This document shows positions 11,930 through 20,978 of a stretch of 64,000 nt of DNA, piece after piece. The stretch lies in assembly GCF_021228235.1 (NCBI RefSeq), contig NZ_JAJQRG010000001.1:372001-436000 (forward strand). Reading direction: 5' to 3'. Within the stretch, counting starts at the first letter, position 1, and each line of letters opens with the position of its first letter. Source of the DNA: Pseudophaeobacter flagellatus. Its GTDB lineage: Bacteria > Pseudomonadota > Alphaproteobacteria > Rhodobacterales > Rhodobacteraceae. A program made the position numbers and the translations under genes. The notes beneath the pieces were generated by a model that was not told where the DNA came from, made no database searches, and saw only the letters and a program-made list of their open reading frames with translations.

Positions 11930-12358
11930 TTACCAGTGGCCAGTGTTTTCCATGCTGGCCCAGGGCTCTGCCGGCTCCAGAGATTCGCCGTTTTGCAGCA
12001 GCTCGATTGAGATATTGTCAGGCGAGCGGATAAAGGCCATATGCCCATCGCGCGGCGGACGGTTGATGGTGATCCCATTGTCCATCAGGAACTGGCAGGT
12101 GTCATAGATATTATCAACACCATAGGCCAGATGGCCAAAATGACGGCTGTCGCTTGGCAGCGCATCATCGCCATCCCAGTTGTATGTCAGCTCCAGCGGG
12201 GCTTCTTCCTGACCCGGAGGCGCCAGATAGAGCAGCGTGAAACGCCCTTTTTCGCTGTCATAGCGGCGGGTTTCGCGCAGGCCGAGCAATTCGTAGAACG
12301 CCATGGATTTTTCCAGGTCTTTCACCCGGACCATTACGTGCAGATAGGTAAGCGCCAT
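11930..12358 (-). CDS. gloA: Lactoylglutathione lyase (glyoxalase I), VOC family
   Basis: Converts the methylglyoxal-glutathione hemithioacetal to S-lactoylglutathione, the first step of methylglyoxal detoxification. The 142-aa protein has two betaalphabetabetabeta modules. It starts with YLHVMVRVKDLEKSMAFYELLGL, contains PLELTYNWD, then GHLAYGVDNIYDTCQFL and the C-terminal AFIRSPDNISIELLQNGE; the histidines and glutamates in these four strands are the expected metal ligands. It is divergent from thyA. Confidence 0.9.
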   Translation of the reverse strand: MALTYLHVMVRVKDLEKSMAFYELLGLRETRRYDSEKGRFTLLYLAPPGQEEAPLELTYNWDGDDALPSDSRHFGHLAYGVDNIYDTCQFLMDNGITINRPPRDGHMAFIRSPDNISIELLQNGESLEPAEPWASMENTGHW

Positions 12359-12597
12359 ATGCGGTGATCCTTACAAGTTGGAACACCCGTTTCTGCAGCT
12401 GATCTTGAACTGACAGAGCCGGGGGTGTGCTGTAGTTTTTTAACACTATCATAACTATAGGCGAAGACGGATTGATTCGCAGGGGGGCGGGACTGGAAAC
12501 GGGCCGCCGCATTGGCAGGGCAATCAACTTGCCTTTGGTTGACAGGCGCAGCTATAGCTGGCCCATCTCGTGATGAGCGTCAGAAAAGGGGATCCCT

Positions 12598-13431
12598 GTG
12601 CAGCAATATCACATGGCCTTGCGGCAAATTCTGGAAACCGGTGTGTCCAGCAGCGACCGCACCGGCACCGGCACCATCTCTTGTTTTGGCATGCAGGCGC
12701 GCTATCCGCTGGAGGATGGTTTTCCGCTGGTCACCACCAAAAAACTACATCTACGCTCTATTATACATGAGCTGCTTTGGTTCCTGTCGGGCGATACGAA
12801 TATCAAATATCTCAAGGATTACGGGGTTTCGATCTGGGATGAATGGGCCGATGAACAGGGAGATCTCGGGCCGGTCTATGGCCACCAATGGCGCCGCTTT
12901 CCCAAGCTGGAGCTGATCCCGGGCACCACCGGGGATGAGCCAGTGTACAGGGCGGGGTCTGTCGATCAGATCGCCGATCTGGTGCAGATGATCAAGACTA
13001 GCCCCGATAGCCGCCGTCTGATCGTTTCGGCCTGGAACCCGGGGGATGTGCCGGATATGGCGCTACCGCCCTGTCATACCCTGTGGCAGGTGCGTATCCT
13101 GGGGGGCAAACTGCATTTGCAGCTTTATCAGCGCTCGGCGGATATGTTCCTTGGGGTGCCGTTCAATATTGCCTCTTATGCCTTGTTGCAGCTGATGCTG
13201 GCCCATGTCACCGGCTATGAGCCGGGGGATTTCATTCATACCCTTGGCGATGCGCATATCTATTCCAATCACCGAGAACAGGTGGCCCTGCAACTGTCGC
13301 GTACGCCCAAGCCACTGCCGCAGATCCGGATCAAGCGGCAGGTCAGCTCTATTTTTGATTTCACCTATGATGATTTTGAGGTGCTGAACTATGATCCCGA
13401 TCCAGGGATCAAAGCCCCCGTCGCGGTGTAA
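12598..13431 (+). CDS. thyA: Thymidylate synthase
   Basis: Methylates dUMP to dTMP using methylenetetrahydrofolate, producing dihydrofolate. The 277-aa protein is typical of ThyA. The nucleophile is Cys159 in LPPCHTLWQ; the N-terminal [11 protein letters not shown] and the dUMP-binding stretch [16 protein letters not shown] are both present. The start is GTG at 12598, preceded by AAAAGGGG; an in-frame ATG lies five codons on. It is followed 83 bases later by folA, which recycles the dihydrofolate, an obvious functional pair. Confidence 0.97.
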
Positions 13432-13514
13432 CAGCCAGCCGGGGTCTTGCCGTCGTCCCATATATCATGCACCGGCTTTTGCCGGGTGCTTCAGCTGCAA
13501 GGCAGACCACTACG

Positions 13515-14003
13515 ATGATTACCCTGATTGTTGCCCGCGACCGCAATGGCGCCATTGGCAAGGACAATACCATTCCCTGGCATGCCCCTGAAGATCTGAA
13601 GGCCTTTCAGCGCGAAACCCTGGGTGGCGCCTTGATCATGGGGCGCAATACATGGCAGAGCCTGCCGGTCAAGCCTCTGAAAAATAGGCTGAATTTGGTT
13701 GTGTCGTCTAACCCTGCCGCTGCCGATACGGTCCATGACAGCGTCACACGCGCGGTTGCAGCGGCCTATGCCCAGGGCTATCGCCGGATCTATGGTATTG
13801 GCGGCGCCCGGATTTACCAAGAGATGCTGTCGCTCGCGGATCGCTTGTTGATCACCGAGGTCGATCTGGCGGTTGCCGAGGCGGATACATTCTTTCCCGA
13901 GGTTGCCGAGGCGGACTGGCAGCGCCAGGGCGAAACAAAACTACGCCCAGCCGATCCCACCTGCGTCATGGTGGAATACCTGCGCCGTACAACAACGGGT
14001 TAG
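13515..14003 (+). CDS. folA: Dihydrofolate reductase
   Basis: Reduces dihydrofolate to tetrahydrofolate with NADPH. The 162-aa protein starts MITLIVARDRNGAIGKDNTIPW, has the substrate and cofactor motifs LPWH-like IPWHAPEDLKAF, GRNTWQSLP, and the GGARIYQEML glycine pair near the C-terminal third. The frame extends 16 codons upstream of the ATG at 13515, but that segment is outside the family. It is expressed with thyA and is the trimethoprim target in this folate branch. Confidence 0.96.
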   Translation: MITLIVARDRNGAIGKDNTIPWHAPEDLKAFQRETLGGALIMGRNTWQSLPVKPLKNRLNLVVSSNPAAADTVHDSVTRAVAAAYAQGYRRIYGIGGARIYQEMLSLADRLLITEVDLAVAEADTFFPEVAEADWQRQGETKLRPADPTCVMVEYLRRTTTG

Positions 14004-14057
14004 CGGCCGAATGCGTGTTTTGAAGCGCGCAGCCCCGATCCTTGCCACTGATCCCTA

Positions 14058-14085
14058 CCAGCGTTGCGTGTCACCGCAACTCTGG
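14058..14085. repeat. Hairpin downstream of folA
   Basis: CCAG-C-GTTGCG (14058-14068), a six-base loop and CGCAAC-T-CTGG (14075-14085) form a 10-bp stem with one mismatch. No T-run follows on either strand. It may stabilise the thyA-folA mRNA or weakly stop transcription between folA and the convergent cold-shock gene. Confidence 0.45.
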
Positions 14086-14134
14086 CAGGGCGGGCTGCGC
14101 TGCTTTGCTTATCCGGTTGTGAGTAGGCAGGTGT

Positions 14135-14341
14135 TTAGGCAGGGCGAATTTCCCCCGCCATTTGCCGACCGTCTCGCCCCTCGGTCAGTTCATAATCGAC
14201 CTTCATATTATCTGTGAGACCAGTCAGGCCGGATCGTTCGACCTGCGAGATGTGAACAAAAACATCACTGCCGCCGTCTTCGGGTGCGATAAAGCCAAAT
14301 CCCTTGCTGGTGTTAAACCATTTCACGGTGCCACTTGGCAT
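14135..14341 (-). CDS. Cold-shock domain protein (CspA family)
   Basis: Small RNA chaperone of 68 aa made of a single cold-shock domain. It carries both RNA-binding motifs, RNP1 KGFGFI and RNP2 VFVHIS, after the start MPSGTVKWFNTS. A strong Shine-Dalgarno (GAAGGAGGCAC on the minus strand, 14348-14358) precedes it. The 232 bases to the divergent ArsC-like gene leave room for the long 5' leader common in csp genes. Whether it responds to cold cannot be seen. Confidence 0.95.
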   Translation of the reverse strand: MPSGTVKWFNTSKGFGFIAPEDGGSDVFVHISQVERSGLTGLTDNMKVDYELTEGRDGRQMAGEIRPA

Positions 14342-14573
14342 TTGCCGTGCCTCCTTCTAATTTATGCGCTGTTCCGGTGCGATCCCAGGACCGATCCAGA
14401 GGTAATTCGGCGTTCGTGGCACCGCGGTCTATACGTCGAAATACACGTAATTCTGCCAATGGTGCTGCAGGTAAGCCGGAGTGCAACTTTTGCATGTGGA
14501 AAAAATAAATCAAGTGGGTAAGTTTCACGCGGCTTAGGATTGATCCTTCCCCCTACCAAAGAGAGGCCGAGCT

Positions 14574-14891
14574 ATGATCCTATACGGATTGAAAAATTGC
14601 GATATCTGTCGCAAAGCGATGAAACAGCTCCCGGATGCCAGATTGGTTGATGTCCGCGCCGAGGGCGTGCCGCCCGAGGTTCTGGCAGCAGCCCTAGCGC
14701 AGTTTGGTGAGCGGCTTGTAAATACGCGCTCAACCACTTGGCGCGGGCTGAGCGCAGAGGAACGCGCCAGTGCCCCGCTGGAACTGCTGCAACAGCATCC
14801 CACCCTGATGAAGCGGCCTTTGATTCAATCCAGATCAAATCTGGCCCTTGGCTGGGACAAAGCCACTCAGACGGCCTTGGGCCTGGGCTGA
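14574..14891 (+). CDS. ArsC/Spx-type thioredoxin-fold reductase
   Basis: A 105-aa protein of the ArsC family, YffB-like branch. It begins ILYGLKNCDICRKAMKQL, with a CxxC (Cys9, Cys12), and ends with the typical MKRPLIQS followed by a glycine-rich tail. The name 'arsenate reductase' is often attached, but no ars genes are nearby and the YffB-like branch is better viewed as a glutathione-dependent reductase of unknown substrate. GAGAGG precedes the ATG. Confidence 0.88.
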   Translation: MILYGLKNCDICRKAMKQLPDARLVDVRAEGVPPEVLAAALAQFGERLVNTRSTTWRGLSAEERASAPLELLQQHPTLMKRPLIQSRSNLALGWDKATQTALGLG

Positions 14892-14902
14892 GGCGAATAT
14901 TG

Positions 14903-14935
14903 CAAAAGGCGCCGCTGCGAGACAGGGCGCCTTTT
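14903..14935. terminator. Bidirectional rho-independent terminator
   Basis: Perfect 11-bp inverted repeat CAAAAGGCGCC (14903-14913) and its complement (14925-14935), with T-runs on both strands. It serves both the ArsC-like gene (plus strand) and the bufferin operon ending at 14958 (minus strand). Confidence 0.92.
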
Positions 14936-14957
14936 GTGTGTGGACCTGCGCGTGGTC

Positions 14958-15494
14958 TTAGCTTGGTGTAACGGGGATCAGGCGGCGCAGGAATGCATCC
15001 AGTGACAGGGGACCCGCACCTTTGAACATTAGGACCAGCAGTAGAAAGCTCCACATCAGGCGTTGGTCAACCAAGCCAATGCTGGTGTCGAATAGGCGGC
15101 CCAGCTCGACCTCATGGCCGGTGACATCCACCAAGGTTTGCACCCAGATAAAGCCAAGGGTGCCAAGCGCGGCAAGACGGGTCACCAACCCGAGCAAGAT
15201 CAGCGTTGGCAGCACATATTCCGCCAGTGTGCCGACAAAAATTATCAGTCGTTGTAACAGGTTCAGCTGCGAAACATCATAGAGCGCCGCCTCGGCTGCC
15301 TTGGGGAAAATCTGTGCAAAGGCCCCGGCCGATGGTGAAAAGATCGACCCTTCGATCTTAAGACCGGCTGAATTCCAATAGTAGACCAGCAGAACCGCGA
15401 CAAACACCAGGCGTGCCAAAGTGGGAAGGATAAAATCCGCAGACCGATCCAGCCGATTAGCCTGGGTCTGATATATCGAGACAACTGCGTGCAT
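14958..15494 (-). CDS. DoxX family membrane protein of the bufferin/gig operon (BufD/GigD-like)
   Basis: Integral membrane protein of 178 aa with about four hydrophobic helices (residues 25-45, 80-105, 108-125, 145-165). It is the last gene of the operon, four bases after the DUF2063 gene. In the Caulobacter, Legionella and Acinetobacter buf/gig systems a DoxX protein sits in this same last position. Its role is not settled; a redox or export function in the inner membrane has been suggested. The assignment rests on family fold and context. Confidence 0.88.
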   Translation of the reverse strand: MHAVVSIYQTQANRLDRSADFILPTLARLVFVAVLLVYYWNSAGLKIEGSIFSPSAGAFAQIFPKAAEAALYDVSQLNLLQRLIIFVGTLAEYVLPTLILLGLVTRLAALGTLGFIWVQTLVDVTGHEVELGRLFDTSIGLVDQRLMWSFLLLVLMFKGAGPLSLDAFLRRLIPVTPS

Positions 15495-15498
15495 GTCT

Positions 15499-16287
15499 TT
15501 ACCTTTTTCTTTCTAGTCCGGTGATGGCACCGCCCTGCAGCAGCAGGGTCAGCGGGAAACTCAAATCAAAATCGGCATCTGTCGCGGTGGCGCGCTGCAG
15601 TGCTGCACCGATGCTGGCGCCCTGTTGCAGGGCGTCGAGCCAGACTGCGCCTGCGGCGGGGAATAGCTGCAGTACCGGATCAAATTCCGGCCGCGTGATT
15701 ATCACCGCCTGCGCTCCGGCCTGGGGGGCGGGGGCCTGCGGTACTGTGTTGAAGCGCCAGATCGCCTCTATCGGCCAGGGCGATTGCAGAAGGTGCAGGG
15801 CCGGGGCAAAGGTCAGACGGCTTGTCAGCAGCGCGTCTTCTGACAAGCCGACCAGGGTATCAGGCGCAATTGGTGTGGCATCGGCAGCGTGGTAGGCTTG
15901 GCGCATGGCCAATTCCAGGCGGGCCACATCTCCGAGATAGCCAAGATGGCTAAGTTGCGGTTGGGCCTCAAGAAAATTTGGAAATTCAGCGCCGTAAAAC
16001 ATCATTAGCGGCGATTTTGGCGGATGGGCATGCAGGAAAAGGCGCGACAGTCCGTTCATGTTTTCGGTCCCCAACAGTTTTGTGATAACCGGAAAGGCGC
16101 TGTGCATCGCCTCGCGAAGCGAGACGGCGATATTGTTGCGATAGACGGAAAACCGTCGCCCTGCGCTGCTCCCGTCCTGATCCACCAGGCCAAGAGGAAT
16201 GGGCAGGCTTGCATCCCGCATCGCCCGGGTAAAGTCATCCTGTGACACCGCAAACGCAGTGCCGTGGGCTTGTTTGCAGCGGTTCAT
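15499..16287 (-). CDS. DUF2063 domain protein, partner of the MNIO enzyme (BufC/HvfC/GigC-like)
   Basis: 262 aa. The N-terminal DUF2063 domain is clear: FTRAMRDASLPIPLGL, then RRFSVYRNNIAVSLREAMHSAFPVITKLLG (about residues 44-73). Known relatives bind the leader or N-terminal part of a precursor peptide and deliver it to the DUF692 enzyme. It overlaps bufB by four bases (ATGA), so the two are translationally coupled, as expected for a complex. The C-terminal half is less conserved. Confidence 0.88.
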   Translation of the reverse strand: MNRCKQAHGTAFAVSQDDFTRAMRDASLPIPLGLVDQDGSSAGRRFSVYRNNIAVSLREAMHSAFPVITKLLGTENMNGLSRLFLHAHPPKSPLMMFYGAEFPNFLEAQPQLSHLGYLGDVARLELAMRQAYHAADATPIAPDTLVGLSEDALLTSRLTFAPALHLLQSPWPIEAIWRFNTVPQAPAPQAGAQAVIITRPEFDPVLQLFPAAGAVWLDALQQGASIGAALQRATATDADFDLSFPLTLLLQGGAITGLERKR

Positions 16288-17177
16288 GCCCGGACCACTG
16301 GTTCGCTGGCCACGGCGGGAAGATGCCCCAGCGCAAAGGCGGCGCGCTCAGCTTCGGCGGCCAAAAGCGGCCAGTCGGGTACATCAGTATCCCATTCTAT
16401 CAGCACGGGTTTTGGGCCAGCGCGTTCCAGGGTGTAATCCAGCAGCGCCCAGACCGGATCGACAACCGCGCAGCCGTGACTGTCGATCAGCAGCGGGCGC
16501 CCCTGATCATCCGTGTCGCTGTCATGGCCGCCAAGGTGAATTTCCCCCACCCGCTCCAGGGCAAAATCATCAATATAGCCCTGTGGTGAAAAGCCAAGAT
16601 TATTGGCCGAAACAAAGACGTTGTTTACATCCAGCAGCAGCCCGCAGCCAGTGCGTCGGCTGATCTCTGTCAGGAACTCGGGTTCTGACCAGGTGCTCTC
16701 GGCAAAAGCGAGGTAGCTGGAGGGATTTTCCAGCAGCATCGGCCGACCAATTGCGGCTTGCAGCTGGTCAATATGATCACAAACGCGGGTTAGGGTCGCG
16801 TCGGTATAGGGCAGTGGCAGCAGGTCATTGTAGAAATGCCCCTCATGGGTCGACCAGGCGAGATGTTCGGAAAAGCTGGAAGGTTCCAGCCAAGCCAGCA
16901 GTCGTTGCAGCCGGGCTAGGTGGGTTGTGTCCAGCGCGGCCTCGCCGCCGATCGACAGACCAACCCCATGCACTGAAATGGGAAATAGTTCGGCTAGATG
17001 GCGCAGTTGCGCCACTGGCCGCCCGCCATCGCCCATGTAGTTCTCGGCGTGGATTTCCAGCCATTTTACCGGGGCGGCATCTGTCAGAATTTGGGAAAAA
17101 TGCTGCGGCTTGTACCCGACACCGGGGGCAGATGGCAGGGCATTGAGGGCAGGGGCTGGGGAGATGGCAGCTGGCAT
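16284..17177 (-). CDS. DUF692 multinuclear non-heme iron oxidative enzyme (BufB/HvfB/MbnB-like)
   Basis: A 297-aa TIM-barrel enzyme of the MNIO family, which oxidises cysteines of ribosomally made peptides to oxazolone-thioamides or thiooxazoles. The metal-ligand strands are visible: WLEIHAENYMGDGG, ISVHGVGLSIGG, SFSEHLAWS, LLENPSSYL, LLDVNNVFVSA, EIHLGGHDSD, IDSHG and LIEWDTDVP. It is followed by the DUF2063 partner (4-bp overlap) and preceded by the cysteine-containing precursor. The product would bind copper in the periplasm if the system works like bufferin. Confidence 0.93.
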   Translation of the reverse strand: MPAAISPAPALNALPSAPGVGYKPQHFSQILTDAAPVKWLEIHAENYMGDGGRPVAQLRHLAELFPISVHGVGLSIGGEAALDTTHLARLQRLLAWLEPSSFSEHLAWSTHEGHFYNDLLPLPYTDATLTRVCDHIDQLQAAIGRPMLLENPSSYLAFAESTWSEPEFLTEISRRTGCGLLLDVNNVFVSANNLGFSPQGYIDDFALERVGEIHLGGHDSDTDDQGRPLLIDSHGCAVVDPVWALLDYTLERAGPKPVLIEWDTDVPDWPLLAAEAERAAFALGHLPAVASEPVVRA

Positions 17178-17338
17178 GGCGGGGCTCGTGTTGGCCGAGG
17201 CCAGGGGCCGGGGCGTGTCTTCGGGGGGCAGATGGCTGGGGGCTGTTACGCGCGAAAGAGGGCGATCAGGTGAAAAGGGCCGCCCCCTGCGCTGTTCTTT
17301 TGTATGTTGGTCAGGTGATATGTGGTTCGGGCCACCTC

Positions 17339-17644
17339 TTAGGCTGGCAGATCCCGTTCCTGCGGTTCCAGAGAGCCACTGCGTTCGGTGCCATCGGGTG
17401 CTGCGGGCAGGTCGATATCTGCGCAGGTGCCTGCGTCGACCAGCGTCCAGGCGTTGCCTTGGTAGTCGACAGTAGAGGTGCCTGCACAGGTGGTGCCGGG
17501 GCCTGCTGCGCAGTCATTTTGACCGGCAAGCGAGACGCCATAGCATTTTTCCTTGGTAGCAGCCGCTGCAGGCATGCTGGAGGCTGCGGTGAGGGCAGCC
17601 GCGATGGCTCCGGCGACGGCGAGAGACTTGGATGGGTTCGACAT
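17339..17644 (-). CDS. DUF2282 bufferin precursor peptide (BufA1/GigA-like)
   Basis: 101-aa secreted precursor. Residues 1-29 are a Sec signal peptide ending in MPAAAA; the mature part has exactly four cysteines (34, 45, 53, 74) in the DUF2282 pattern [18 protein letters not shown] and TTCAG, followed by [11 protein letters not shown] and the tail [15 protein letters not shown]. In bufferins these cysteines are modified by the DUF692 enzyme to give a periplasmic copper-binding product. It is first in the operon, as is usual for precursors, and 161 bases separate it from bufB. The start is preceded by AGAAGGAT. Confidence 0.92.
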
Positions 17645-17803
17645 CTCTTAAAATCCTTCTGGTTGGTGGTGATATGCAAAGCCTAACTCGTTGTGAGAAA
17701 GAGCTTAAGTCACGAGAGCGTGTCTCACGACGGCGTCAGGTACTGTGAGGGTATTGTAACAGGTTATTCCCTGAAAACAGGGATAATCTGAGGCCTGAAT
17801 AGC
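17645..17803 (-). promoter_or_regulatory. Promoter region of the bufferin operon
   Basis: The 159 bases upstream of the bufA start must hold the operon promoter. I see two imperfect dyads (17718-17740, GTCACGAGA/TCTCACGAC type; and 17763-17785 around TTCCCTGAAAACAGGGA). Caulobacter buf operons are driven by the ECF factor SigF at a GTAACC-N16-CGAA sequence; no full match is present here (the nearest is GTGACT-N17-CGAG). No ECF sigma or anti-sigma gene is nearby in the window. Confidence 0.4.
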
Positions 17804-17827
17804 AAAACGGCCCCCGATGGGAGGCCG
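17804..17827 (-). terminator. Rho-independent terminator of thrS
   Basis: CGGCC (17808-17812) and GGCCG (17823-17827) enclose a CCC/GGG inner stem with a small bulge; four T follow on the minus strand (A17804-A17807). It sits 26 bases past the thrS stop. Confidence 0.82.
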
Positions 17828-17852
17828 CTTCGTGGTCAAAACTTGGCAAATG

Positions 17853-19799
17853 TTACAGCAAATCTGGGGCGGTTGCCTCTAGCGCCAGCGCCTTTGTAAC
17901 ATTCTCGAGACTGTCGACGCGGGTTTGCTTCTCCCCCAGACGGCGGATCGATACAGTGCGCTCTTCGACTTCGCGGTGGCCAATGGCCAGGATCACCGGC
18001 ACCTTGCCAACCGAATGTTCGCGGACTTTGTAGTTGATCTTTTCATTGCGAATATCGGCCTCGGCGCGCACACCGACAGCCTGCAGCTGGGCAACGACCT
18101 CTTGCACGTAGTCATCCGAATCCGAGGTGATCGAGGCGACAACAACCTGACGGGGGGCCAGCCAGAAGGGCAGCTTGCCCGCATGTTCTTCGATCAGGAT
18201 GCCAATGAAACGTTCAAACGAGCCGAGCGTCGCCCGGTGCAGCATAAAGGGACGGTGCTTGTTGCCATCGGTGCCGATGAAGTTGGCCTCCAGGCGTTCC
18301 GGCAGGTTGGGGTCCACCTGCAGGGTGCCGCACTGCCAGTTGCGGCCAATGGCATCCGTGAGGGTGAACTCCAGCTTGGGGCCATAAAAGGCGCCTTCGC
18401 CTTCCAATAGCTCATAGTCATAACCAGCGGCCTTGCAGGCATCGCCGAGGGCCTTTTCGACCAGATCCCAGCTTTCATCGGTGCCGATGCGTTTTTCGGG
18501 GCGGGTCGACAGCTTGATGGTCCAGTTGTGGAAGCCGAGATCGGCATAGACCTTGGACAGGAAGGCGATGAACTTGGCGGTTTCAGACTCGATCTGATCT
18601 TCGGCGCAGAAGATATGGCCGTCATCCTGGGTAAAGCCGCGCACCCGCATGATTCCGTGCAGGGCACCAGAGGGTTCATAGCGGGCGCAGGAGCCGAATT
18701 CCGCCATGCGCAGCGGCAGGTCGCGGTAGGATTTCAGACCCTGGTTGAAGACCTGCACATGGCAGGGGCAGTTCATCGGCTTCAGTGCGTTGACGGCCTT
18801 TTCCCGAGCATGGTCTTCGTCTACTTCGACGATGAACATGTTCTCCTGGTATTTATCCCAGTGGCCAGAGGCCTCCCAGAGTTTGCGATCAACAACCTGC
18901 GGGGTGTTGACCTCGACATAGCCGTCGCGTTCCTGCATGCGGCGCATGTAGTCCTGCAAGGTGGTGTAAATTTTCCAGCCATTGGGGTGCCAGAAGATCT
19001 GGCCGGGAGCCTCTTCCTGCATGTGGAACAGCTCCATCTCGCGGCCCAGCTTGCGGTGGTCGCGCTTGGCAGCCTCTTCCAGCATGTGGAGATGGGCTTT
19101 CAGCTTTTCCTTGCCGGTGAAGGCAACGCCGTAGATGCGCTGCAGCATGGCGCGGTCACTGTCGCCGCGCCAGTAGGCGCCAGCAATCGACATCAGCTTG
19201 AAGGCATCGCCGGGCAGCTGGCCGGTGTGTTGCAGGTGGGGGCCGCGGCACAGATCCTGCCAATCGCCATGCCAGTACATCCGCAATGGCTCATCGCCGG
19301 GAATGGCCTCGATCAGTTCGACCTTATAGGGTTCATCATTGGCGGTGTAGAAATCAATCGCGCGCTGACGGTCCCAGACTTCGGTGGTGACCGGCTCACG
19401 CTTGTTGATGATCTCTTTCATCTTTTTCTCGATCACGCCGAGGTCTTCGGGGGTGAAGGGCTCGGCGCGGTCAAAATCATAGTACCAGCCGTTGTCGATC
19501 ACCGGGCCAATGGTGACCTTGGTGTCGGGCCAGAGCTCCTGCACGGCGCGGGCCATGACATGGGCCAGATCGTGGCGGATCAGCTCATTGGCCTGGGCTT
19601 CGTCCTTGAGAGTGTGCAGGGCGATAGCGGCATTACCCTCGATGGGCCACTGCAGGTCCCAGTGCCTGCCATCAAGGGTGGCAGAGATGGCTTTTTTGGC
19701 CAGAGAGGTCGAAATATCGGCAGCCACTTCGGCGGCGGTGATGCCGGCAGCATAGCTGCGTGCGTTGCCATCGGGGAATGTGAGAGAGATTTGGGCCAT
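17853..19799 (-). CDS. thrS: Threonyl-tRNA synthetase
   Basis: Class II synthetase of 648 aa that charges tRNA-Thr. Domain order is TGS (residues 1-65), tRNA-SAD editing domain with the HDLAHVMA metal motif, catalytic core with motif 2 [15 protein letters not shown] and [13 protein letters not shown], and a C-terminal anticodon-binding domain. The start at 19799 ([11 protein letters not shown]) follows GAGGAG; eleven upstream codons are not part of the family. Essential gene, apparently monocistronic. Confidence 0.97.
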
Positions 19800-19970
19800 G
19801 GTTTGGCTGCTCCTCGTCGGTTTGGCGCCCACTGAACGCCCGGTTGCGGGTTATGTGATTGTGGGCTGCTTTCGCAGTTGCGCGTGCCGCTGTCAAGGCG
19901 GCGAGGGGCCAGCCCCTCGCGCTCCCCGGGATATTTGCGGCCAAATGAAATGGAACAGGTTTGCGCCGCT

Positions 19971-20978
19971 TTAGTCTGGCTGTGGGGTGGGGACACCTTG
20001 GCGGATCATGCGGGAATAGTCGGGGGCAATTCCATGCGCCTGGGCGCGGGCGGTGATCCTGCCTTTTTGGGTGAGTTCAGCCAATGGCAGCCCTGTGGCC
20101 AGAACGCCCATATCATAGGCGTATTCCGGCAGGTAGCCATTGGCCATGACGCGCCAGTCCAGTGGGACTTCGCCCAGTATGGTGCGGATCAGTTGAAACA
20201 CCACGGTGGTGCAGTTGGTGGAGAGCGAATTATACCAGCGCGGCGTCTTGGCCAGCTGGTTGGAGGTGGCCACATATTGCAGCAACAGGGCGCGGGCTTG
20301 CTTGGGGCTTGAGTTGAGGCGGTAGAGCTGGACGTCTTCGCCGCGGGCATTGGTGCGGGTGCCGACAAGGTCGCGTTCATCTGCGGCTATGATCGCCAGG
20401 GTGTTGGACTTGAACATATCCGCGAGGGGAGAGAAGGCGCCGTCTTTTTGGCGCCTGACCTCTACGGACCAGGCGATCTGTTCGCCATTGGCGAAACCAA
20501 AGCTGACGATCATATGCGCGATCGTCTTGCCAGCCCAATAGGACATGAACAGATCGACGGTGTTTAGTGTATCGAGATCATAGTGGCGCTGTTCCCAGTG
20601 GGGGTCAAAATCTGTTGGGCTGCGCCAGGTGAAATTGCGCAGGTTGGTCAGGGTCAGCTGGGATCCCTTGACTTCTCCGGTGACTTGGCGCGCCACATCC
20701 GGAGCCCAGTCGCGGTTGACAGGCGGAGTGAGGCTGATCCACCAGGTCAGTACCGCCGCCAGGGCCAGGCAATATGTGGCCAGGGCGCGCAGGCGGCGCG
20801 GGCGAAACAGGCCGCAGATCACCGCCAGTCCAAGCAGCGCAAACCCGACTGCGAGCCCTAGTCGCAGGCCTGCCCCCAAGGGGAGCCGATACCACAAGGC
20901 CAGCACGGCCCAGGCGCTGCAGAGGGAAATGACAAGAGACAGCAGAGCCAGAAAACTGTGGTGCAGTATGCGTGTCAT
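19971..20978 (-). CDS. DUF4105 (Lnb N-terminal-like) membrane-anchored protein
   Basis: 335 aa. Two or three hydrophobic helices occupy residues 5-90, followed by a large domain that should be periplasmic. This domain matches DUF4105: WRSPTDFDPHWEQRHYDLDTLNTVDLF, HMIVSFGF, and STNCTTVVFQLIRT, which carries a cysteine and histidines resembling the papain-like Lnb peptidase fold. Function is unknown; the DUF4105 group has been speculated to be a cysteine hydrolase. The ATG at 20978 follows a CTGGAGGG ribosome-binding site and is more credible than the longer frame. Confidence 0.85.
   Translation of the reverse strand: MTRILHHSFLALLSLVISLCSAWAVLALWYRLPLGAGLRLGLAVGFALLGLAVICGLFRPRRLRALATYCLALAAVLTWWISLTPPVNRDWAPDVARQVTGEVKGSQLTLTNLRNFTWRSPTDFDPHWEQRHYDLDTLNTVDLFMSYWAGKTIAHMIVSFGFANGEQIAWSVEVRRQKDGAFSPLADMFKSNTLAIIAADERDLVGTRTNARGEDVQLYRLNSSPKQARALLLQYVATSNQLAKTPRWYNSLSTNCTTVVFQLIRTILGEVPLDWRVMANGYLPEYAYDMGVLATGLPLAELTQKGRITARAQAHGIAPDYSRMIRQGVPTPQPD

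Follow-up and report, generated by a model that had tools for sequence, protein, structure and literature searches.

The window analysed here, a stretch of 64,000 nucleotides from the roseobacter Pseudophaeobacter flagellatus (contig NZ_JAJQRG010000001.1, positions 372,001 to 436,000 of the forward strand), contains a four-gene operon of the bufferin type, composed of a precursor gene (bufA), a maturase gene (bufB), a partner gene (bufC) and a gene for a DoxX-like protein. Taken as a whole, the data are best explained by a Buf1 bufferin operon in which an activator, bound to a conserved box upstream of bufA, is likely to replace the sigma-F/NrsF switch. This explanation builds on results established in the present analysis, namely the gene content, the family membership of BufA and BufB, the predicted fold of BufC, the synteny, the box itself and the lack of an NrsF match or a close SigF relative in the host genome.

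The element at the centre of this explanation is a 31-bp stretch, TGACGCCGTCGTGAGACACGCTCTCGTGACT, which we call the buf box. It is located on the minus strand at 17708..17738, -94 to -64 from the bufA start, and is a putative operator with the pattern TGAC-N6-GTGA-N2-CAC-N5-CGTGA-N-T. The box is conserved in 80 distinct upstream sequences, which were aligned on their best match to CGTGA-N2-CACG-N4-CGTGA. In this alignment T-9, A-7, C-6, G1, G3, A8, C9, G16 and T17 are invariant, T2, G18, A19 and T21 are conserved to at least 96%, and the spacing between the blocks is fixed across the bufA upstream regions. Of these, T-9, A-7, C-6 and T21 are not part of the alignment anchor and are 96-100% conserved. 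When 14 anchor positions were scored, all 90 usable upstream regions reached 11-14, compared to 7-10 in one shuffle each; this comparison is partly circular, because the anchor was read off 34 of the same regions (the truncated locus L079 was excluded). In the window, the full box pattern with up to three mismatches has a single match, where 0.08 are expected by chance. Directly after the box the family alignment shows TTnAAC, followed 17 bases on by TAnnnT. The corresponding elements in the window, assigned from column conservation, are the -35-like hexamer TTAAGC at the end of the box (17703..17708, minus strand) and the -10-like TAGGCT 17 bases after it (17680..17685, minus strand). Together they plausibly constitute a weak sigma-70 promoter.

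With no more than one mismatch, the box was found in 51 of 248 Rhodobacteraceae genomes, at one site in each, while the reversed pattern used as a control gave zero matches in the same genomes. All 51 genomes carry DUF2282, the family of the bufferin precursor, and the 30 box loci that were fetched all hold bufA beside the site. In 40 of 41 box genomes (the other 10 were left out of this count), the box lies 100-350 bases upstream of the DUF2282 match. The exception, genome G468 (loci L143 and L265), has a strong box (16/17) between bufA and bufB and a weaker copy (14/17) before bufA. Within the genus, one exact site, at bufA in every case, is present in 11 of 12 genomes. Among the 29 best DUF2282 loci of a draw from the whole phylum, a box score of at least 13/17 was reached by six of the seven loci inside the family and by none of the 22 outside it, six of which carry the sigma-F promoter pattern. 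Shuffled sequences attained a box score of 13 in 4 of 1450 cases.

The control described in detail for bufferins in the published accounts consulted is the sigma-F/NrsF pair, and bufferin operons of Caulobacter are reported to be under sigma-F control and to be induced by copper (PMC3511200, PMC8224329). Compared by gene content and description rather than by direct sequence alignment, the Caulobacter Buf1 operon CC3254-CC3257 resembles the operon of the window in having DUF2282, DUF692, DUF2063 and DoxX genes in the same order (PMC3511200), and its family is described as having four conserved cysteines (PMC12452194). In Caulobacter, however, sigF and nrsF (CC3253, CC3252) adjoin the operon, which has a GTAACC-N16-CGAA promoter, whereas the window has the box instead. 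The sequence-only reading, made without database searches, had pointed out that no sigma-factor gene stands alongside the operon and that its control might therefore differ. Both points hold. The neighbours are thrS upstream and an ArsC/Spx-like gene downstream, the conserved box precedes bufA, and the host genome has no match to NrsF (PF06532) and no close relative of SigF: with the SigF of locus L235 as the query, three places were found, at 25-34% identity. Moreover, the bufA upstream region of the window contains no instance of the sigma-F promoter pattern GTAAC[CG]-N15-17-CG[AT]. A hidden sigma-F control, be it a promoter before bufA or a SigF/NrsF pair elsewhere, was considered and rejected on the basis of these pattern, NrsF and SigF searches.

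Across the family, NrsF matches were found in 40 of the 248 genomes and exceeded the cut-off in 35, none of which has the box (at most one mismatch). An NrsF match below the threshold (21.5 bits versus 26.8) was seen in one box genome, G626. Of the 178 genomes with DUF2282, 28 carry NrsF over the cut-off and 51 the box. The overlap is zero, compared to 8.0 genomes expected; for independent genomes, which these are not, the chance of zero would be about 3e-5. We further read 120 rows, comprising the window, 80 named loci (the best 80 of at least 582 relatives in a BufB scan), 20 loci from genomes with NrsF and 19 further loci selected without NrsF. Three of these last 19 were picked for a strong box, and the 120 rows are a chosen sample that does not give frequencies. 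None of the 19 rows with NrsF in the locus reaches 13/17 for the box, and 12 of them show the sigma-F pattern before bufA. Of the other 101 rows, whose loci lack NrsF, 97 score at least 13/17 (box-type rows); L244, L258, L259 and L079 fall below. L244 has the sigma-F pattern, and NrsF is found on another contig of its genome.

Both kinds of control occur at one chromosomal site. In L235, thrS is followed by nrsF and sigF on the opposite strand and then by bufA; NrsF and the sigma regions 2 and 4 were confirmed with Pfam, and L243 has the same gene order. In L235, L243 and L244 an ArsC-like gene lies downstream, which places them at the same site as the box-type operons. Since box and sigma-type operons share this thrS-buf-arsC site, control has probably been exchanged in place, as far as the gene arrangement indicates. 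In a tree of 119 BufB proteins, in which L233 with its split BufB is missing, 15 sigma-type operons form one deep clade (support 100/99), and the other side holds 104 rows, of which 97 are of the box type, four are sigma-type and scattered, and three show neither signal. Well-supported branches force at least one change of control, and parsimony on the drawn tree, in which many forks are weak, gives four for the sigma label. Independent exchanges would be few, because 15 of the 19 sigma-type rows share one deep clade.

A number of observations weigh against the explanation proposed here. The sigma-F pattern, as written here, is absent from seven of the 19 NrsF-linked operons, three of the 120 rows show neither signal (L258, L259 and L079, the last truncated and unreadable), the box-type locus L068 also matches the sigma-F pattern, and shuffled sequences match this pattern in 20 of 1450 cases. 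The strong box (at most one mismatch) is present in only 51 of the 178 DUF2282 genomes, and the others have weaker versions or neither signal. The counts of box and NrsF ignore shared ancestry, with most sigma-type rows in the one clade. With one to two mismatches, the genus has three extra box sites, including one in the host genome, and the reversed control also gives three. The hairpin between bufA and bufB, discussed below, is poor in the window (z of -0.2 over 100 bases and 0.74 over the whole gap, not better than shuffles). Finally, the box could be read in other ways.

A more specific form of the activator model, which we put forward tentatively and consider slightly less likely than not, is that a dedicated metal- or redox-sensing factor, encoded outside the operon and having about one target per genome, controls the bufferins of roseobacters. 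The exchange would have taken place in situ between thrS and bufA, and one and the same operon would be under two unrelated sensors.

Alternatively, instead of a dedicated factor, a pleiotropic regulator with a large number of poorer-matching targets might bind the box, or the operon might be expressed by general factors; we regard this as possible but rather unlikely. The strict 31-bp pattern finds full copies only, so that single half-sites are missed, and a shorter 20-base version with up to two mismatches gave 85 matches in the host genome, near the 73 of its reversed control. Against many targets speaks that, with up to two mismatches allowed, no second target recurs in the 12 genus genomes, the three extra sites mentioned above being non-recurring. 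Four sites in the host genome match the shorter pattern with one mismatch. Two of them were looked at, with the neighbouring open reading frames (ORFs) named by eye from their translations, and neither is convincing as a further target: L125 falls within the end of one ORF and is 144-163 bases ahead of another, which is glyceraldehyde-3-phosphate-dehydrogenase-like, and L126 is found where an electron-transfer-flavoprotein-like ORF begins.

It is less probable that the box is the promoter of an unlinked extracytoplasmic function (ECF) sigma factor, with TGACGc as -35, CGTGAnT as -10 and a spacer of about 17 bases, which would still be a sigma-type control. The spacing of the two outer conserved blocks is possible for an ECF promoter, and the host genome has the three weak matches to the SigF query. 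However, the middle block GTGA-N2-CAC is no less conserved than the outer blocks, which is more than one sigma factor needs, and the further TAnnnT block conserved 22 bases downstream would be unneeded as well. The box is not known to resemble any ECF promoter.

A further alternative concerns the product and not its control. That it mainly serves another metal, gold, or a response to oxidative or sulphur stress instead of copper buffering appears improbable to us. Related operons were named gig for their induction by gold, the Caulobacter operons are reported to respond to chromate and cadmium as well, other metals are discussed in PMC12452194, and in Microbulbifer a related thiooxazole cluster was described as undetected with or without added copper (PMC12538549). 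On the other hand, the Caulobacter Buf1 peptide is reported to chelate Cu(I) and Cu(II) and to enhance growth in copper excess (PMC12452194).

The reading that we favour least is that the conserved stretch functions at the RNA level or is part of the thrS end, as a terminator or processing signal, and has no bearing on bufA: it does sit in the thrS-bufA gap, but thrS is followed by a separate terminator-like stem (17811..17823, minus strand, which would set thrS apart from the operon, although the two such sites of the region are not above the shuffle mean of 2.9), the box-type loci L248 and L255 have no thrS match in about 5 kb upstream, the box starts 54-151 bases before the start codon among the loci listed, and window positions 12000-20500 gave no match to any Rfam family.

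The identity of the operon itself is that of a known kind. An ORF check of the window placed four ORFs, all on the minus strand, exactly where the sequence-only reading had put them, and its claim of a complete four-gene operon in this order is borne out by Pfam matches over the cut-off for all but the DoxX-like protein, which falls just under. The precursor gene bufA (17339..17644, 101 amino acids) encodes a DUF2282 protein of the Buf1 type (PF10048, 86.5 bits versus a cut-off of 22.4), the match spanning residues 31-78. As proposed before, the precursor has four cysteines (C34, C45, C53 and C74), all of which are invariant in a set of 15 diverse DUF2282 proteins. The N-terminus, MSNPSKS followed by a hydrophobic stretch, looks by eye like a typical signal peptide. 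Outside the Pfam match lies a C-terminal tail that ends in RDLPA; its pattern, which further supports the assignment together with the relatives, was found in 95 of 97 box-type rows compared to 10 of 19 NrsF-linked rows. After the last cysteine (17342-17422 in the window), GSLxxLxRDLP is nearly constant in box-type rows, and many NrsF-linked rows have GMGSLEPIxM-like ends. In genome G415 (contig C18, 55492-55990) two DUF2282 matches lie about 190 bases apart on the same strand, possibly tandem precursor genes. The structure model of BufA is of low confidence (mean predicted local distance difference test score, pLDDT, 60.1) and was not used.

The second gene, bufB (16284..17177, 297 amino acids), encodes a protein that scores 338.2 bits against PF05114 (DUF692), over the cut-off, and 366.7 bits against the NCBIfam model NF050167 (MNIO family bufferin maturase, MNIO_BufB), whose curated cut-off is 310. 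H70, H105, E150, D183, N185, H214, H218, D232, H234 and E261 are at least 98% conserved in 119 sequences, and the H/D/E/N motifs align with 3BWW; these residues would include the metal ligands. The gene bufC (15499..16287, 262 amino acids) shares four bases with bufB (16284-16287), as had been noticed, and a four-base overlap is present in 100 of 119 relatives measured. BufC matches PF09836 (DUF2063, the PME-type 1 partner) with 83.9 bits, over the cut-off, and reaches 57.8 bits against the HvfC model NF050145, under its cut-off of 142. No relative of BufC was found in the PDB by sequence search. An AlphaFold2 model (pLDDT 92.3) matched best, in Foldseek, the TglHI chains 8hi7_A and 8hci_A (E 2e-6), followed by NGO1945 (3DEE, E 4e-5) and, more weakly, by an MbnABC chain (E 0.3). 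The predicted fold of BufC is that of an MNIO partner such as TglI or NGO1945, as expected of a bufferin partner. We do not favour BufC as a regulator, in spite of the Pfam description of DUF2063 as a putative DNA-binding domain, because the predicted fold is that of MNIO partners. The last gene (14958..15494, 178 amino acids) encodes a DoxX-like membrane protein with 21.4 bits against PF07681 (cut-off 23.6) and 21.2 bits against NF050144, under its cut-off of 80; DoxX proteins are common in bufferin clusters. Overall, sequence comparison supports a Buf1 bufferin operon with ordinary gene content, and the bufferin/gig-type assignment made earlier is supported by the NF050167 score, the four-cysteine DUF2282 precursor and the MNIO-partner fold predicted for BufC.

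The chromosomal place of the operon is conserved. Upstream on the minus strand lies thrS (17853..19832, named from product similarity with no family search), and the convergent neighbour downstream is the ArsC/Spx-like gene (14574..14891, plus strand; PF03960, 43.7 bits), whose product scores 50 bits against the Spx/MgsR model, under the cut-off of 75. All 79 named loci that reach thrS have the order thrS-bufA-bufB-bufC-doxX, and the contig of the 80th begins inside bufA. A relative of the DoxX gene follows bufC in 80 of 80, and the convergent ArsC/Spx-like gene is found in 75 of 80, two of the other five ending before it. With thrS upstream in 79 of 80 named loci, the arrangement is not due to chance. 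The recurrence of the gene order and of the ArsC neighbour suggests a vertically kept chromosomal locus and not a mobile island. The host genome has one DUF692 and one DUF2282 match. DUF2282 is present in 11 of the 12 genus genomes (the one lacking it is 86% complete), in 178 of the 248 Rhodobacteraceae genomes and in 102 of 398 genomes in an even draw from the phylum. All but one of the 80 named loci have Rhodobacterales, Rhodobacteraceae-family or unspecific alphaproteobacterial titles. The exception, L043 (JAHVJD010000002.1), is a 593-kb contig titled Nocardioides marinus, an actinobacterium, with a typical roseobacter thrS-buf-arsC locus and a BufB that is 81% identical; the record is probably mislabelled or contaminated. 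In L063, BufC was matched as two ORF pieces, as was BufB in L233 (genome G551), which suggests frameshifts or assembly errors.

A hairpin may be formed in the bufA-bufB gap (17250..17292, minus strand), as judged by folding; it is weak in the window and strong in most relatives. A stem of at least 9 bp after the bufA stop was found in 88 of 97 box-type and 18 of 19 NrsF-linked rows, and was unmatched by 50 shuffles in 72 and 10 rows, respectively. The stem-loop sequence differs between lineages. For folding energy, the median z is -2.2 over the 100 bases that follow bufA and -0.6 over the 100 bases that precede it, and z is below -2 in 50 of 90 loci after and in 15 of 90 before. In the window, the stem is 7 bp within 80 bases and no better than shuffles, so the hairpin is kept here only as a feature of the family. 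It may act as a leaky terminator or stabiliser favouring the precursor over the enzymes.

In the mechanism that we propose, the control follows from the box and its surroundings, and the chemistry, metal, export and benefit are carried over from the families. BufA would be synthesised with a Sec signal peptide. BufB and BufC, an iron oxygenase and its peptide-binding partner, would then oxidise its two central cysteines to thiooxazoles in the cytoplasm. The modified BufA would next be exported, its outer cysteines closing a disulphide, and bind excess copper in the periplasm. The DoxX-like protein probably protects against a concomitant redox or sulphur stress. A transcription factor whose gene lies elsewhere would bind the box just upstream of the weak sigma-70-type promoter and activate the operon, standing in for the sigma-F/NrsF switch of the Caulobacter bufferin operons; this switch probably also operates in other members of the family, given its presence beside their bufferin operons. 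Through the hairpin after bufA, the precursor may be produced in larger amounts than the enzymes.

For the cysteine chemistry and the copper role, the analogy is with Caulobacter Buf1 (PMC12452194) and the captophorins (PMC13097082). The sequence-only reading had the precursor cysteines oxidised to copper-binding heterocycles. The DUF2282 and MNIO families fit this, but in Buf1 bufferins the modification is described for the two central cysteines, and the first and last form a disulphide (PMC12452194). Four modified cysteines are thus not to be expected. The gig operons of Cupriavidus metallidurans and Legionella, which are induced by gold and are likened here by description, are bufferin gene clusters according to PMC12452194. 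Captophorins (fontiphorin, oxazolin and gonophorin) are likewise reported to combine an MNIO with a DUF2063 partner, cysteine-derived 5-thiooxazoles and a link to copper, but their precursors have EGKCG repeats, and DUF2282 precursors form a separate group of the class (PMC13097082). TglHI and MbnBC share the MNIO-partner architecture, the TglHI chain being closest to the BufC model, but have other substrates and chemistry. Precursors of methanobactin and pearlin are described as having no signal peptide (PMC12452194).

Further transcriptional regulators beside such clusters are mentioned without details in PMC13097082. Judged mostly from titles and abstracts, no published account of bufferin control in roseobacters was found, and within the DUF2282 literature no title or start of an abstract concerned Rhodobacteraceae. 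DUF692 clusters have been noticed in Phaeobacter and Sulfitobacter genomes as unnamed clusters for ribosomally synthesized and post-translationally modified peptides, and those of Sulfitobacter are reported to be expressed in biofilms (PMC11595833, PMC11278168).

The rest being an ordinary bufferin operon, the new part is the control region, a lineage-wide variant that we did not find described in the literature examined. As a 31-bp site found once per genome next to bufA, the box offers a direct handle on the regulator that would bind it. Roseobacters provide a marine lineage in which to ask which signal, copper or another, bufferins answer. Moreover, the occurrence of both control types at one chromosomal position makes the exchange itself testable.

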